A DNA stretch of 64,000 nt from Paenibacillus sp. MMS20-IR301 (GTDB lineage: Bacteria > Bacillota > Bacilli > Paenibacillales > Paenibacillaceae), in assembly GCF_032302195.1 (NCBI RefSeq), contig NZ_CP135275.1, positions 3,472,001 to 3,536,000 on the forward strand. The letters run 5' to 3'. A program made the translations under genes and the position numbers. Positions 8,628 to 44,520 of the stretch are shown here, one piece after another; the stretch's first letter is position 1; each line of letters begins with the position of its first letter. The notes beneath the pieces were generated by a model. That model was not told the origin of the DNA, searched no databases, and worked only from the letters and a program-made list of their open reading frames with translations.

Positions 8628-9281
8628 CTAGCCTTGAGCCCAGCCCTTCCGGTGGGCATAAATAGCCAGCTGGGTACGGTCATCGAGCTCGCACTTCATC
8701 AGCAGGTTGCTGACATGCGTCTTCACTGTCTTGATGCTGATATGCAGCTCTTCGCCGATATCCTTATTGGTTTTGCCCTCGGCGATCAGCAGCAGCACTT
8801 CCTTCTCCCGTTCGGTAAGGCCTGAGGAATCCCCCTGCACGGTCCGCTGGCGGATGCCGCGGGTTAATGCCTGCGAGACATCGCCGGTCATTACCGGCAT
8901 GCCGCGGTAGGCGCCCTGCAGCGCGTAAATCAGTTCTTCCGCCGAAACGGTTTTGAGCACATAGCTTACGGCGCCGGCCTCAATGGCATCCACTACCAGG
9001 TCATCCTCCAGGAAACTGGTGAGGATCACTATTTTGAGGCCGGGGAATTCGGCCAGCACCGCACGTGTCGTTTCTGCCCCGTTCATGACCGGCATCATCA
9101 GATCCATCAGCACGAGATCCGGCAGCGCCTCCTGCCCCAGCCCGCGCAGCATCGCCAGCGCTTCATGGCCGTTGGCCGCTTCACCGATCACCTCAAACAT
9201 CGGGTCCAGCATCAGATAGGTTTTGAGGCCCATCCGCACCATATCGTGATCATCTACAAGCAATACTCTAATGATACTCAT
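8628..9281 (-). CDS. liaR: LiaR-like NarL/FixJ response regulator
   Basis: Response regulator of the LiaFSR cell-envelope stress system. The 217-aa protein has a receiver domain (LVDDHDMVR, phosphoacceptor in VLMDLMMP, TSFLEDD, Lys in SYVLKTVSAEE) and a LuxR-type helix-turn-helix (LTEREKEVLLLIAEGKTNKDIGEEL). The start is the ATG at 9281 with GGGGGA upstream; the longer in-frame start at 9335 would run through the repeat leader. It is the last gene of the liaF-liaS-liaR operon, but separated from liaS by a 167-bp spacer made of a tandem structured repeat that ends at its ribosome binding site. Confidence 0.93.
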   Translation of the reverse strand: MSIIRVLLVDDHDMVRMGLKTYLMLDPMFEVIGEAANGHEALAMLRGLGQEALPDLVLMDLMMPVMNGAETTRAVLAEFPGLKIVILTSFLEDDLVVDAIEAGAVSYVLKTVSAEELIYALQGAYRGMPVMTGDVSQALTRGIRQRTVQGDSSGLTEREKEVLLLIAEGKTNKDIGEELHISIKTVKTHVSNLLMKCELDDRTQLAIYAHRKGWAQG

Positions 9282-9285
9282 GTTG

Positions 9286-9447
9286 CTTCCCCCTAAAGTT
9301 TTGATAGCATCTGCTTCCTGGCATCTTCTTCGCAAAACTCACTCCGGAAGCATACGCTAAAGTTTTGATAGCATCTGCATCCTGGCATCTTCTTCGCAAA
9401 ACTCACTCCGGAAGCATACGCTAAAGTTTTGATAGCATCTGCATCCT
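9286..9447 (-). repeat. 64-bp tandem repeat / structured leader of liaR
   Basis: Two full units (9293-9356 and 9357-9420) and a partial third (9421-9447) fill the liaS-liaR gap; the two full units are nearly identical. Read on the minus strand, the unit next to liaR has TAGCGTATGCTTCC pairing with GGAAGCAGATGCTA (13 of 14, one A-G mismatch), and AGTTTTG in the loop pairing with CAAAACT just after that stem, two bases before the Shine-Dalgarno. This would be an H-type pseudoknot. A related copy precedes metI at 24246-24325 and a short one lies at 61267-61320. Confidence 0.8.
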
Positions 9448-23072: not shown

Positions 23073-24239
23073 CTACTCCAGCTCCACCCGCGCCGCCTCA
23101 AGCGCCTGTGCAAGATCATTAATCAGATCATCTACATGCTCGATCCCGACAGAGAAACGCAGCAGACGGTCATCGACGCCAACGGCATCGCGGATCTCCA
23201 CCGGAATATCGGCATGGGTCTGCACAGCCGGATAAGTCATAAGCGACTCGACACCGCCCAGGCTCTCGGCAAAAGCAATCAGGCGGATATGGCGGAGCAG
23301 CGGCTCCACATATCTGGCATCCTTAACTTTGAAGGAGAAGATTCCGGTGTTGCCGGAGGATTGGCGGTTCTGGATTTCATACCCCGGATGATCGGGCAGG
23401 CCCGGGTGGAACACCTCGGCAACCGCCGGATGCTCCAGCAGATACCGGGCAATAGCCAGTGCATTGCTCTCATGCCGCTCCATGCGCAGGGCAAGTGTCT
23501 TCATGCCCTTCATCAGCTGGTAGCTGTCATTTGGTGCAAGTACAGCGCCCAGCGAGTTATGCAGGATAGCCATTTCTGCTGACAGCTCCGCGCCTTTGGT
23601 CACAATAAGTCCGGCAAGCACGTCATTATGTCCGCCCAGATATTTGGTCGCACTATGTACGATAATGTCTGCCCCAAGCTCAATCGGACGCTGGAAGAAC
23701 GGGGTTAGCAGCGTGTTGTCGACAATAGTCAGCAGCCCGTGCGTGCGGGCCCATGTACACACCGCTTCGACATCTGTAATCATCATCAGCGGATTGGTCG
23801 GCGTCTCAATAAACACAGCTTTGGTGCCCGGCTGGCGGGCAGCCTCCAGGCCCTCCAGGTCATTCGTATCCACATAGGAGGCGCTGATGCCGTATTTGGA
23901 GAGAATCCGTTCAAGCAGACGGTAAGTTCCGCCGTACAGGTCCAGCGATACCACGAGATGGTCGCCTTGTCCGAACAGGGCGAATACTGTAGTCAGGGCA
24001 GCCATCCCGGAGGCACAGGCAAAGCCGGCATCGCCGGATTCCAGTGCGGCAGCCGCGTCTTCGAGTACGGTGCGGGTAGGATTTTTGGTGCGGATATAGT
24101 CAAAGCCTGTGCTCTGACCGAGTCTCGGGTGACGGAAAGCCGTCGCATTATATATCGGGTAATTAACCGCCCCCGTTGCCGGGTCCTCAAGTGAACCAAT
24201 CTGTGCCAGTCTGCTCTCAATCTTCAGTTTCTCGTCCAT
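23073..24239 (-). CDS. metI: Cystathionine gamma-synthase / O-acetylhomoserine thiolyase
   Basis: PLP enzyme of methionine synthesis, joining an activated homoserine with cysteine or sulfide. The 388-aa protein shows YPIYNATAFRHP, the cofactor region FACASGMAALTT, Asp in IVDNTLLTP, and the PLP lysine in HSATKYLGGHND. It closely resembles B. subtilis MetI. The second ATG (24239) is chosen because AGGAGG is 8 nt before it but only 2 nt before the ATG at 24245. It lies downstream of metA on the same strand, so the upstream SAM riboswitch should control it too. The 121-bp gap to metA contains the structured repeat ending at its ribosome binding site. Confidence 0.93.
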   Translation of the reverse strand: MDEKLKIESRLAQIGSLEDPATGAVNYPIYNATAFRHPRLGQSTGFDYIRTKNPTRTVLEDAAAALESGDAGFACASGMAALTTVFALFGQGDHLVVSLDLYGGTYRLLERILSKYGISASYVDTNDLEGLEAARQPGTKAVFIETPTNPLMMITDVEAVCTWARTHGLLTIVDNTLLTPFFQRPIELGADIIVHSATKYLGGHNDVLAGLIVTKGAELSAEMAILHNSLGAVLAPNDSYQLMKGMKTLALRMERHESNALAIARYLLEHPAVAEVFHPGLPDHPGYEIQNRQSSGNTGIFSFKVKDARYVEPLLRHIRLIAFAESLGGVESLMTYPAVQTHADIPVEIRDAVGVDDRLLRFSVGIEHVDDLINDLAQALEAARVELE

Positions 24240-24245
24240 TCCCAT

Positions 24246-24325
24246 TGCCTCCTAAAAGTTTGTTAGCATTTGCTTCCCTGAATTTCTTCGTACAAACTAG
24301 CTTCGGAAGCATCAGCTATGTGTAG
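24246..24325 (-). repeat. Structured leader repeat before metI
   Basis: Same element as at liaR. Minus strand: TAGCTGATGCTTCC pairs with GGAAGCAAATGCTA (11 of 14, three-base internal loop), and AGTTTGT in the loop pairs with ACAAACT after the stem, directly before TTTAGGAGG. Compared with liaR (AGTTTTG/CAAAACT) two pairs have changed on both sides and pairing is kept. Confidence 0.75.
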
Positions 24326-25351: not shown

Positions 25352-25545
25352 AAAAAAAACCTTTCTCAGGCGAGAAAGGTCATATATCTGCAGTCATATG
25401 CGCCTCTCTCATCTGCCAGAGAACTTCCGCCGGACGTATACGTCCTGCCGAGCTTCCGCAAGATTTAGCACCGTGCGTAGATACGCCGGTTGCCGGGTTT
25501 CATCGGGCTAGTCCCTCCACCTGCTCTTGATAAGATTTAGCTGTA
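25352..25545 (-). promoter_or_regulatory. SAM-I (S-box) riboswitch of metA-metI
   Basis: Minus strand: CTTATCAAGAG at 25524-25534, then GGTGGAGGGACTAGCCC, GATGAAACCCGGCAACC and the GGTGCTAAATCTTGC segment, all conserved S-box parts. The terminator CCTTTCTC-GCCT-GAGAAAGG (25360-25379) with TTTTTTTT follows. High S-adenosylmethionine should stop transcription of metA and metI. Confidence 0.95.
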
Positions 25546-38722: not shown

Positions 38723-41319
38723 CGCGGCTGCCGCTGAGCGATGGCCTGCTCCGGAGCCGCTGTTTCCGCGTCTCCCGTCTCCCGTACAGCTTGCCCGGCA
38801 CTCCCGCCGGTCCCGTGGTGCCCATGCCCATGGTGCCCATGCTCGTGATGCCCATGCCCGTGGTGCCCGTGCCCATGCTCCTCCTCACCATGGTGGTGAT
38901 GGTGGTGGTGGTGGTGGTGATGCAATGCCGCCTCGTCACGGTATTTGCAGTTGTCGCAATTACTGAAGGACTGGCCCTCCAGCGTCTCTTCAACCCGCTC
39001 AGCCAGCATATCAATAAGCAGCGGATGGGCGCCCAGCTGGCGGCCGGCCGCCACTTCTATTTCCGGATGGTCTGCGGCAAATTGCGCTGTTATTTCGCTG
39101 AACTGCTTCATTAGCACTCCGGTGAAGAGCAGGTACGGCACAACAATAATCTTACGCGCACCCAGCTTCAGACAGCGTTCAAGCCCTTCCGGCAGCAGCG
39201 GATTCGTAATTGCTATGAAGCAGGCTTCAACGCTTTTATAAGATGTTCTTTCCCATAGGAGCCGGGTCAGTTTGAAGAAATCACTATTAGCATCCGGATC
39301 ACTGCCCCCGCGGCCCATCAGCAGCACAATGGTATCCTTATCCTCTACAGCCGGGGAAGGTGCTTCCGGCATACCCGATTCAGCTTGTATAGCCCGTTCA
39401 ACCAGTTCTGCCTCATTATTATGCTCCGGCAGGGGGATAAGCCGCTCAGCTTCCCTGATGCGGTCCAGTACAATGTCTACAGCCCGCTCCTGCACCCCCA
39501 GCGGACGCCCGTAAATAAATCTGACCCCGGGATACCGCAGCTTGGCCTCGTCAATGGCCATAGGGATATCCAGCTTGGAATGCCCCGCTGCGAACAGAAT
39601 AATCGGCACTACATAAATTTCTGTGGCATCGCCCTCTACACATTTGGCGATCCCGCCGGCAATAGAAGGTGAAGCCAGCTCTATGAAGCAGGTCTCAAAT
39701 TTAAGCTCCGGCTTGCGCGCGGCAAGCAGGCTGGTGAACTGCAGCAGCTCCTCATTCCCTTCCTGGACCCGGCTGCCGTGTCCAACCAGCAGTACTGTTC
39801 TCATTATGCGTGCTCCTTCTGTGCTGTCATTATTCTTGGTGTTCTCTTCAATCCTGTTCATCCGGGCAAAAAAGGCATGAAATCGCTCCTGCTCCCGGCC
39901 TTGCGCAGAATACTGCTCTACGGCCGCAGTTACAGCAGCTATTGCCTCATCTTCATTCATGCCCTCGCGGACTAACGTACCTGCATGTGCACCCCGGCCC
40001 GATCTCTTACCGCCCAGATACAGCTCATAGCTGCCCCGCGAGTAGACCAGCCCGATGTCTTCCAGCACAGCTGAGCTGCAGATCATGCCGCAGCCCGCCA
40101 CGCTGATCTGCAGCTCTCTGGGTACCGGGTGTCCGTGTAAGGATCTATGCAGGCGCACCGCTGCGCTTAATGCGTCACTCCGCCGCATGTCGCAGAAACC
40201 GCAGGTCTTCACCTTCACATAATCTCCGGGCAGGCTTATGTGCAGTCCGGCTTCTTCCAGCTCAGCTGCCGCCTCTAGCAGCACCCCCGTCCGGGTGCGC
40301 AGCAGCAAATGCCCGTCCCTGCCATAGACAAGCCGGCCCTCACTGCCGGCCAGCCCGGCCAGCTGCTTCAGCTGCCCTCCGCTAAAACTGCGGCTGCCGA
40401 TGGCCGGGCCCACCTCCAGCTCGTAGCCCGCTACCCCGGCATCCGCGCCGCCTGGCTCACCTCCCGCTGCCCGCTCCGCTTCCGCCGCAGCGAGCGACCA
40501 CGGCTCGGCCGCCGTGCGCAGCCGTTCATGCGGCTTCAGCGCCTGTGTCTGCGCGCTGAGATTATACTTGCGCTCATATCCGCGCGGCGTAACCATCAGC
40601 CCCTCATAGGCCATCGTCGCTGAATTGCCGACGACCACGGTAGAGAGCATGCCGATGTCATGCTCCAGCATGTCCTGCAGCGTCGTTACTACGGTATGCT
40701 GCCGGCTGCGGTAGGCGCTCTTGACAATGCCGACCGGTGTGGCAGGGTCCCGGTAACGCAGCAGAATCCGGCGCGCCTCTTCAATCTGCCGCGTCCGCTT
40801 GCCGCTGCGCGGATTATAGAAGGCAATGACGAAATCCGCCGCCCCTGCCGCCTCTATACGCGCGGCTATACTCTCCCACGGTGTAAGATGATCGCTCAGG
40901 CTGATCGTGCACGAGTCATGCATAACCGGTGCTCCCAGCAGCGAGGAGCAGGACTGGATTGCCGATATCCCTGGAATCACCTCAACTGTAACACCGTCAG
41001 CCGGATTCCAGCCGCGTTCAATCAGCACCTCATAGACCAGACCGGCCATCCCGTATACTCCGGCGTCACCGCTTGAGATGACGGCGATAATCTGCCCGGC
41101 TTCTGCCCGGCGGACTGCCTCCTGGGCACGGCTGACTTCTTCCGTCATCCCCGTACCCACAATCTCCTGATGCCTTAGCAGCGGCTTAATCAGATCAACA
41201 TAAGTGTTGTAGCCGATAACGGCTTCACTCTCATCCAGGGCAGCCAGGGCCCGGCCGGTAATATGCTCCAGCGCTCCGGGACCGAAGCCGATAACCAGCA
41301 GTTTCCCTTGTTTCTTCAT
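38719..41319 (-). CDS. CbiH60-CbiX fusion: precorrin-3B C17-methyltransferase, Fe-S domain, sirohydrochlorin cobaltochelatase
   Basis: One 866-aa frame holds four parts. Residues ~1-245 are CbiH, the C17-methylating, ring-contracting enzyme (LVIGFGPGALEHITGRA, VISSGDAGVYGMAG, PGISAIQSCSSLLGAP). Residues ~300-500 resemble a half nitrite/sulfite reductase with CGFCDMRRSD and VAGCGMICSS, as in CbiH60 of B. megaterium. From 506 follow two CbiX chelatase halves (LLVGHGSR, PIILFAAGHSK; LLMGRGGSD, VPYLLFTGVLMK). The end has CDNC (788-791) and a His-rich tail (800-836) like CbiX-long. The ATG of residue 506 (39804) has AAGGAG 8 nt upstream, so a separate 361-aa CbiX may also be made. Confidence 0.92.
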   Translation of the reverse strand: MKKQGKLLVIGFGPGALEHITGRALAALDESEAVIGYNTYVDLIKPLLRHQEIVGTGMTEEVSRAQEAVRRAEAGQIIAVISSGDAGVYGMAGLVYEVLIERGWNPADGVTVEVIPGISAIQSCSSLLGAPVMHDSCTISLSDHLTPWESIAARIEAAGAADFVIAFYNPRSGKRTRQIEEARRILLRYRDPATPVGIVKSAYRSRQHTVVTTLQDMLEHDIGMLSTVVVGNSATMAYEGLMVTPRGYERKYNLSAQTQALKPHERLRTAAEPWSLAAAEAERAAGGEPGGADAGVAGYELEVGPAIGSRSFSGGQLKQLAGLAGSEGRLVYGRDGHLLLRTRTGVLLEAAAELEEAGLHISLPGDYVKVKTCGFCDMRRSDALSAAVRLHRSLHGHPVPRELQISVAGCGMICSSAVLEDIGLVYSRGSYELYLGGKRSGRGAHAGTLVREGMNEDEAIAAVTAAVEQYSAQGREQERFHAFFARMNRIEENTKNNDSTEGARIMRTVLLVGHGSRVQEGNEELLQFTSLLAARKPELKFETCFIELASPSIAGGIAKCVEGDATEIYVVPIILFAAGHSKLDIPMAIDEAKLRYPGVRFIYGRPLGVQERAVDIVLDRIREAERLIPLPEHNNEAELVERAIQAESGMPEAPSPAVEDKDTIVLLMGRGGSDPDANSDFFKLTRLLWERTSYKSVEACFIAITNPLLPEGLERCLKLGARKIIVVPYLLFTGVLMKQFSEITAQFAADHPEIEVAAGRQLGAHPLLIDMLAERVEETLEGQSFSNCDNCKYRDEAALHHHHHHHHHHHGEEEHGHGHHGHGHHEHGHHGHGHHGTGGSAGQAVRETGDAETAAPEQAIAQRQPR
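39813..39818 (-). promoter_or_regulatory. Internal ribosome binding site for CbiX
   Basis: AAGGAG, spaced exactly 8 nt from the in-frame ATG at 39802-39804 that opens the CbiX part (MRTVLLVGHGSR) within the fused frame. Confidence 0.6.
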
Positions 41320-44179: not shown

Positions 44180-44334
44180 GCATGTACGCAGGTAATGTAG
44201 GGTGGCGAATGCCGCAATGAATAGCTGGATGCAATCTTGTATATTAAAGATCCCCTCCGGCTCTGCTGGCAGAACGCCTCTTCTAAATAACCTATCCGTA
44301 CACCGCTCCTATCCGCGTAGAGTCGTGGTGTGCT

Positions 44335-44520
44335 TACACAAGGTAGGTCTCCTGGCTTGGAATACCGGCGCTGTGAACTTCGCCTTCCCCGGGTGATGCC
44401 CGAGTGACATGATGAAGCCCAGCTCTTCCTTACAGTGGCGGGACCGCTCGGGAGTTGCACCCGATTCCCTGTTACCCCTTGCCGCAGGCGGCAAGAGCAC
44501 CTTGTATAGTCGCTAATTCA
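44335..44520 (-). promoter_or_regulatory. Cobalamin (AdoCbl) riboswitch
   Basis: Minus strand: B12 box GCCACTGTAAGGAAGAGC at 44422-44439 and the downstream AAGCCAGGAGACCTACCTTG near 44340-44359 are diagnostic. About 155 nt lie between it and the terminator before cbiM. It should lower expression of the whole cbiM to cbiA operon when cobalamin is plentiful. Confidence 0.95.

Follow-up and report, generated by a model that had tools for sequence, protein, structure and literature searches.

A dispersed structured repeat of Paenibacillaceae, placed immediately upstream of Shine-Dalgarno sites, as a candidate RNA element of translation initiation

The window analyzed here is a stretch of 64,000 nucleotides from Paenibacillus sp. 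MMS20-IR301 (NZ_CP135275.1, positions 3,472,001 to 3,536,000), which contains liaF, liaS, liaR, metA and metI, identified by Pfam matches together with the gene names of a first-pass annotation. That annotation had described an element of ~75 nt in front of both liaR and metI, reaching up to the Shine-Dalgarno (SD) site, and our analysis confirmed it as written, on the minus strand. It had overlooked the tandem nature of the liaR copy: the interval from the liaS stop to the liaR start holds a 3' half-unit, a full unit of ~64 nt and a second full unit that ends at the liaR SD (9293-9447, minus strand; TRF: 9293-9447, period 64, 2.4 copies, 98% matches). The proximal full unit (AGCG...CAAAACT, 9297..9358) is matched by our covariance model of the family, R1, at G000:C1:3481297-3481358 (E 1.7e-12), and its distal tandem copy (9361..9422, also delimited by TRF) at 3481361-3481422 (E 6.8e-12), while the half-unit (9423..9447; TRF, and BLAST at 3481421-3481447) forms the 5' end of the array directly past the liaS stop. 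The two full units are a single base apart, in the 3' stem arm. The SD AGGGGGA (9288..9294) and the ATG linked to it (9281-9279) follow, and the coding region from this ATG (8631..9281, minus strand) encodes a LuxR-type response regulator according to Pfam. At metI there is one diverged unit with a shortened S2 helix, between metA and metI (24317-24257, minus strand; R1 match 3496257-3496317, E 1.7e-9, a value to be read with the fact that this copy is itself among the 38 units behind R1). It precedes the SD AGGAGG (24248..24253, minus strand) and the likely start ATG (24239-24237), chosen by SD spacing, of a coding region downstream of metA for a PLP enzyme of Cys/Met metabolism (Pfam; 23073..24239).

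Two helices can be drawn in the liaR unit, all arms being on the minus strand. The long stem P1 is formed by the 5' arm TAGCGTATGCTTCC (9346..9359) and the 3' arm GGAAGCAGATGCTA (9305..9318, from a pattern match), and is imperfect, with an A.G mismatch in its middle. The second helix, S2, joins AGTTTTG (9333..9339) to CAAAACT (9297..9303), the latter ending 2 nt 5' of the SD; its assignment draws on the sequence and on covariation in the family. The pairings AGTTTTG/CAAAACT at liaR and AGTTTGT/ACAAACT at metI are both present as first described. A pattern of the 3' stem arm with at most 3 mismatches matches the window 23 times against 7.4 expected, a number that 0 of 100 shuffles attained, several of the 23 matches falling inside the liaR and metI sites themselves. 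A search of the window with Rfam 15 yielded only a SAM riboswitch upstream of metA (25406-25536, minus strand), the metI element being downstream of that gene, and a cobalamin riboswitch (44325-44519, minus strand), both away from the element; for the element region itself, searched with E up to 10, the one match, to a snoRNA, was at chance level (13.6 bits, gathering score 60). The proposal of a candidate structured RNA beside SDs, outside the families of Rfam, is supported. Tandem repeats of short period (15 nt and 3 nt) were also seen inside a long coding frame at 38812-38919.

R1 was built from 38 units of the own genome and stops at CAAAACT, so that it contains no letters of the SD. The covariance-model search that the first-pass annotation had proposed gave 99 matches at E<=10 in the own 7.69-Mb genome, and of 295 genomes sampled across the same bacterial family, the own genome included, 139 were positive at E<=0.01. 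In the 53 loci fetched around the genome matches R1 has 93 matches at E<=0.5, BLAST with the liaR unit returns 60 genome-wide hits at E<=10, and all 20 genomes of nine other genera, chosen as earlier positives, were positive again. A class-wide scan, with stricter filters by which weak matches are lost, found 11 positive genomes among 299, all of them Paenibacillaceae, and an exact-pattern scan of GTDB contigs returned 49 stretches, every one titled Paenibacillus or Paenibacillaceae. We explain the element best as a dispersing RNA specific to Paenibacillaceae. Searches of the literature, supplements being outside their scope, brought up no publication that we recognized as describing it: the main text of two structured-RNA surveys (PMC11109978, PMC8632094) does not mention Paenibacillus, and a transcriptome paper on P. 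riograndensis (PMC5670726) reports riboswitches, the words "repeat" and "pseudoknot" being absent from its main text.

In the own genome, 53 of 55 arrays stand in sense orientation immediately 5' of an SD-like site, behind which a start codon opens a frame of 60 codons or more; the count relies on the model without SD letters, and several of the 53 are weak or partial matches, down to E 0.44 (L091:90-124). The gap between S2 and the SD is 3 nt in 42 arrays, 2 nt in nine and 4 nt in two, and the start codon lies 13-20 nt downstream. Partial units included, 22 arrays have one matched unit, 24 have two and seven have three. To keep one position and one orientation beside the SD is a trait of cis-regulatory translation leaders, and the random placement relative to start codons against which the first-pass annotation had weighed its idea is not seen. 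The remaining two arrays (L114, L122), scored as misses, represent a different and longer repeat. When arrays were defined by a regular expression and other genera were included, 266 of 302 had both a start and an SD, eight a start but no SD by regular expression, and 28 no start that was found; loci overlap in this set, so that some places are counted more than once. By eye, many of the 28 go back to clustering that separated internal units, to the ends of loci or to false hits of the expression, and L227, at least, looks like a genuine copy with a poor SD. Outside the 55 arrays, weak R1 matches were inspected at eight places, of which, by eye, four adjoin an SD (L403, the compact variants L399 and L404, and the decayed L406) and four belong to the longer repeat (L400, L401, L402 and L405); five further places from BLAST comprise a known array (L407), a copy of the longer repeat (L408) and three without a unit recognizable by eye. 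No clear replication-strand bias was apparent by eye from the R1 match coordinates, and an upstream reading frame that would begin with the ATG of the 5' arm is, by eye, not strictly conserved.

Could a short insertion target explain this placement? In a 342-kb sample of the own genome, AGGAG occurs at 77 intergenic positions away from starts, while 78 intergenic occurrences and a further 137 within called frames precede a start; the corresponding numbers for AGGAGG are 22 away from starts, and 42 intergenic and 47 in called frames before a start, and for TAGGAGG two away from starts, and 19 and 22 before a start, the start-preceding counts containing the SDs of the arrays themselves. A bare target of either kind, AGGAG or AGGAGG, should thus leave some copies elsewhere, and we reject it. 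A longer target such as TAGGAGG may apply, its two intergenic sites away from starts being too few to discriminate. The same counts bear on the idea of a REP/BIME-type repeat whose Y1 transposase, of the REP-associated kind, would recognize AGGAG, or CTCCT when read on the opposite strand. Short tandem repeats with inverted arms beside a fixed short sequence are in keeping with such a system, but copies should then also be found away from starts, and the Y1 family (PF01797) has no protein in the own genome against five positives among 14 control genomes. For this genome REP/RAYT mobility is largely refuted, and we regard it as the least credible of the explanations considered here.

The two helices fare differently when their conservation is analyzed. 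Among the 38 units of the own genome, 97% of the S2 cells and 76% of the P1 cells are paired, and covariation within this set is not above shuffles; the S2 signal sharpens once units from other genera join. Paired variants of S2 include AGTTTTAT/ATAAAACT, AGTTTTTAC/GTAAAAACT, AGTTTTTGC/GCAAAAACT and the AGTTTGT/ACAAACT type seen at metI. The larger set comprises 322 distinct units selected by a regular expression that requires AGTTT (one substitution allowed) and AAACT, so that only S2 pairs beyond these letters test covariation. The pair that flanks AGTTTT/AAAACT within the unit is G-C in 281 cases, A-T in 11 and T-A in 10, and 20 units have G-T or no pair there; read against the arm upstream of the unit, where there is one (199 units), it is G-C in 154, A-T in three, T-A in three and unpaired or G-T in 39. 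In arrays of mixed S2 type (e.g. L097, L136, L237, L257) the arms likewise pair better inside a unit than between a unit and its upstream neighbor. An alternative helix, in which AGTTTTG would take the CAAAACT that precedes the unit as its partner, was rejected, as that partner fits the variants far worse.

For the swap test, the column scan and the relatedness-aware null we used 208 units, those left after dropping units at least 90% alike or without GCT/GCC at the expected place. The comparison of own with swapped duplex stability gave z -13.4 for S2 and z -3.5 for P1, with controls at -0.5 and -0.2. Under the relatedness-aware null, in which substitutions are re-thrown on a FastTree tree, S2 pairs six and seven were each reached in 1/200 replicates (uncorrected for the 14 pairs looked at), and pairs eight and nine were unexceptional on pairing (70/200 and 188/200). 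For P1 this test covered the five lower pairs, the upper part with its indels being left out, and gave 27 to 93 of 200, none of them exceptional. The ungapped column scan placed one lower-P1 pair second among 357 column pairs (0.54 paired vs 0.46 expected), and most other top pairs fit no helix. The P1 duplex is stronger on the sense than on the antisense strand (-10.26 vs -8.63 kcal/mol; in 213/322 units, without a composition control), which suits an RNA. A small inner hairpin, CGAA/TTCG, was rejected, since its energy is not below that of shuffles or of swapped halves (z 0.7 for both). We conclude that S2 is kept by paired changes, a result supported for two pairs also against the relatedness-aware null, and that the P1 long stem is weakly supported. 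Of the H-type pseudoknot put forward in the first-pass annotation, together with covariation in both helices as its check, the half that stands, by statistics other than those proposed there, is the second helix between the loop and the bases 3' of the stem; support for the stem itself is weak, its lower pairs failing the null. The loop lengths further suggest that the full P1 and S2 would be mutually exclusive in a classical H-type fold, because they leave 1-3 nt to span about 12 bp.

Comparison of orthologous sites, made by eye, revealed gain, loss and decay of the element between conserved neighbors, a trait of dispersed mobile repeats of the MITE kind, at liaR, sdhA, qcrC and aroE, and most of the relatives shown lack it at these four genes. 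Among 30 liaR loci there are four full units (L277, L279, L289, L290), two 3' remnants (L278, L284) and 24 sites with nothing recognizable; among 29 sdhA loci, seven have units (some degenerate), four have remnants, four carry a different long insert and 14 are empty. At qcrC (26 loci) the element is found in the own genome only, and at aroE (18 loci) in the own genome, with a 3' remnant in L344 and what look like further decayed copies in L345 and L349. In L312, L313 and others, the insert is followed directly by the native SD of the empty sdhA sites, AGGAGTGAAC, which indicates that the element abuts a pre-existing SD rather than bringing one. The alternative offered in the first-pass annotation, a mobile repeat that carries its own ribosome binding site, is thus borne out as regards dispersal and decay and contradicted at sdhA as regards the origin of the site. 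The different, longer insert upstream of sdhA in L327, L328, L333 and L334 ends at the same native SD, and that of L327 includes a compact copy of the core; Rfam found no match in the inserts of L327, L333 and L334. Some placements look old: in the pairs L203/L234 and L081/L192, orthologous genes of different genera have the element at the same place. In the own genome the 25 best pairs listed of copies from different loci are 76-91% identical, so no recent jump was caught.

These observations lend weight to a selfish or nearly neutral dispersed repeat that survives only where it is harmless, directly 5' of an SD, which we consider a possible though not the favored explanation. Such a repeat could perhaps spread via RNA or into sites opened by translation initiation, and S2 would then serve copying instead of control. 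The filled, empty and remnant sites at the four genes, the tandem growth inside loci, the lack of a functional theme among the downstream genes, and the retention of S2 nearly as well in units that do not touch an SD all agree with it, as does a core in common with a longer repeat away from ribosome sites; a longer target such as TAGGAGG may also have guided its spread. Against it, the Y1 transposase family is absent from the genome, no recent jump is visible at the identities given above, and neutral survival should leave copies in other intergenic places or in reverse orientation, whereas only two of the 55 arrays, both of the longer repeat, lie elsewhere. Nor did searches of phage and plasmid collections return any match to the element, and carriage by either was rejected.

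The longer repeat is a second dispersed family of the own genome (L412, L413, L416, L417, L402; e.g. at G000:C1:287935, 623213, 4436408 and 5263927), with matches of 149-189 nt that are 80-95% alike. It has the shared core AGCATATGCTTCCGAAGCGAG followed by a GCTTTCC/GGAAAGC hairpin and, by eye, lies away from ribosome sites. Compact variants also exist, in the own genome (L399, L404/L415) and in another genus (L255), in which the S2 arms form a plain hairpin with a loop of 3-5 nt and the 3' stem arm is missing; the two in the own genome adjoin an SD. At the other extreme, L199 (G232:C11:898542-899125 and on) has ten matched units in one array; over much of it, two types of unit that differ in the last base alternate and so form a 130-nt higher-order repeat.

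The genes behind the element are diverse. We scanned 52 of the 53 downstream proteins, 50 with NCBIfam and those of liaR and metI with Pfam, L121 being left out, and saw no common pathway among those that could be named. Matches above the NCBIfam cut-off include (the list is not exhaustive) cytidine deaminase, Rex, RhaA, FabF, ThiM, DapF, MetG, CimA, IlvD, AroE, cardiolipin synthase, CysW, the ATP synthase gamma subunit, xylulokinase, thioredoxin, SdhA, NifB and HelD; below the cut-off are a PDH-type E1 alpha subunit, an E2 acyltransferase and a FabH-like protein, and 13 of the 50 proteins have no match at 1e-10. The gene at L093, which we take to be qcrC, has only sub-cut-off cytochrome c matches in NCBIfam. 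H-type pseudoknot riboswitches such as preQ1 and SAM-II form a helix between a loop and the bases next to the SD, and the first-pass annotation had likened the element to translation-controlling riboswitches. A structured RNA that adjoins an SD and has unpaired conserved letters, such as CGAAG, would suit a metabolite-binding riboswitch with an SD-proximal pseudoknot, yet the lack of a pathway theme among those of the 53 target genes that could be named, fast gain and loss, tandem arrays of near-identical units and a long stem without firm confirmation all speak against the likeness, and this reading is very improbable.

A same-strand stop-free frame ends at most 120 nt upstream in 30 of the 53 arrays, as would be expected within operons. 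This, together with a structured RNA on the sense strand, would agree with an element of mRNA processing or stability that gives the genes of an operon different mRNA levels through intergenic cleavage or protection and leaves a clean SD at the new 5' end. The other 23 arrays have no such upstream frame, and an SD at 2-4 nt is not required by processing; we therefore think this role improbable, if less so than a riboswitch.

The reading that we prefer, at a probability of roughly 45%, is a dispersing cis-acting RNA module that would act on translation initiation. According to this model S2 would form in the mRNA right beside the SD. In one state the 5' arm ATGCTTCC would pair with its own 3' arm to give P1 and leave the SD free; in the alternative state the CUUCC of the 5' arm would pair with GGAGG in the SD, giving a hairpin that encloses S2 and masks the SD. 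Each insertion would thereby put translation initiation of another gene under the same two-state RNA, which may be read by ribosome traffic or by an RNA-binding factor, and tandem copies could raise dose or sensitivity. The complementarity between 5' arm and SD is modest (-5.59 kcal/mol vs -5.06 with a shuffled arm), with no own-versus-swapped signal, and predicted pairing of the SD overall is not above shuffled controls (0.58 vs 0.61), so masking is a step that we infer. In favor of translational control we count the placement, the covariation of S2, the sense-strand preference of P1 and the sites common across genera. Against it we count the missing common function, the absence of the element from most relatives and its remnant decay; the SD pairing at control level, S2 kept away from the SD and a lower P1 that fails the null; and the longer core-sharing repeat off ribosome sites, as well as a possible target of the TAGGAGG type. 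A stronger version, in which a self-dispersing RNA switch copies itself specifically to the 5' side of ribosome sites and so brings dozens of unrelated genes together in one regulon of translation, with a common factor as the sensor and the tandem copy number as the dial, appears rather unlikely.

Several known repeats invite comparison. BOX elements of Streptococcus are modular structured repeats near genes, with a variable number of internal tandem modules, and are not known to keep a fixed distance to an SD. The element described here, likened to them by description and not by sequence, is similar in its modular tandem structure near genes and differs in its fixed distance to the SD. The bcr1 and similar repeats of Bacillus cereus, again compared by description and not by sequence, are alike as dispersed repeats in Bacilli. 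REP/BIME sequences with RAYT transposases have in common with it short palindromic dispersed repeats in clusters, whereas here there is no Y1 transposase, one orientation and one kind of site. Relative to preQ1 and SAM-II, the family has no ligand theme, forms tandem arrays, turns over rapidly and has a long stem that is not confirmed. The nearest published pattern that we found is that of the TAACTGA direct repeats of Beggiatoaceae, which occur in many tandem sets, in the main genome studied mostly directly upstream of the start codons of functionally unrelated genes; translational regulation was proposed for them, and their mode of spread is given as unknown (PMC4679880). According to the same source, the heptamers overlap the expected SD and most genes behind them have no obvious SD (PMC4679880), whereas in Paenibacillaceae, another phylum, units of ~64 nt with a covarying helix abut the SD.

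We regard the family as a structured, dispersed repeat whose fixed placement is that of a leader RNA. Dispersed bacterial repeats and cis-regulatory RNAs are usually treated as separate classes, and this element resembles both: it spreads and decays as a repeat, yet it keeps a paired helix and occupies one kind of site, in one orientation, before the SD. A neutral element would pose the puzzle of how a repeat for which no transposase is known reaches ribosome sites. If it acts on translation, it would provide a route by which unrelated genes gain shared control quickly, and close relatives with filled and empty sites would then constitute natural experiments.
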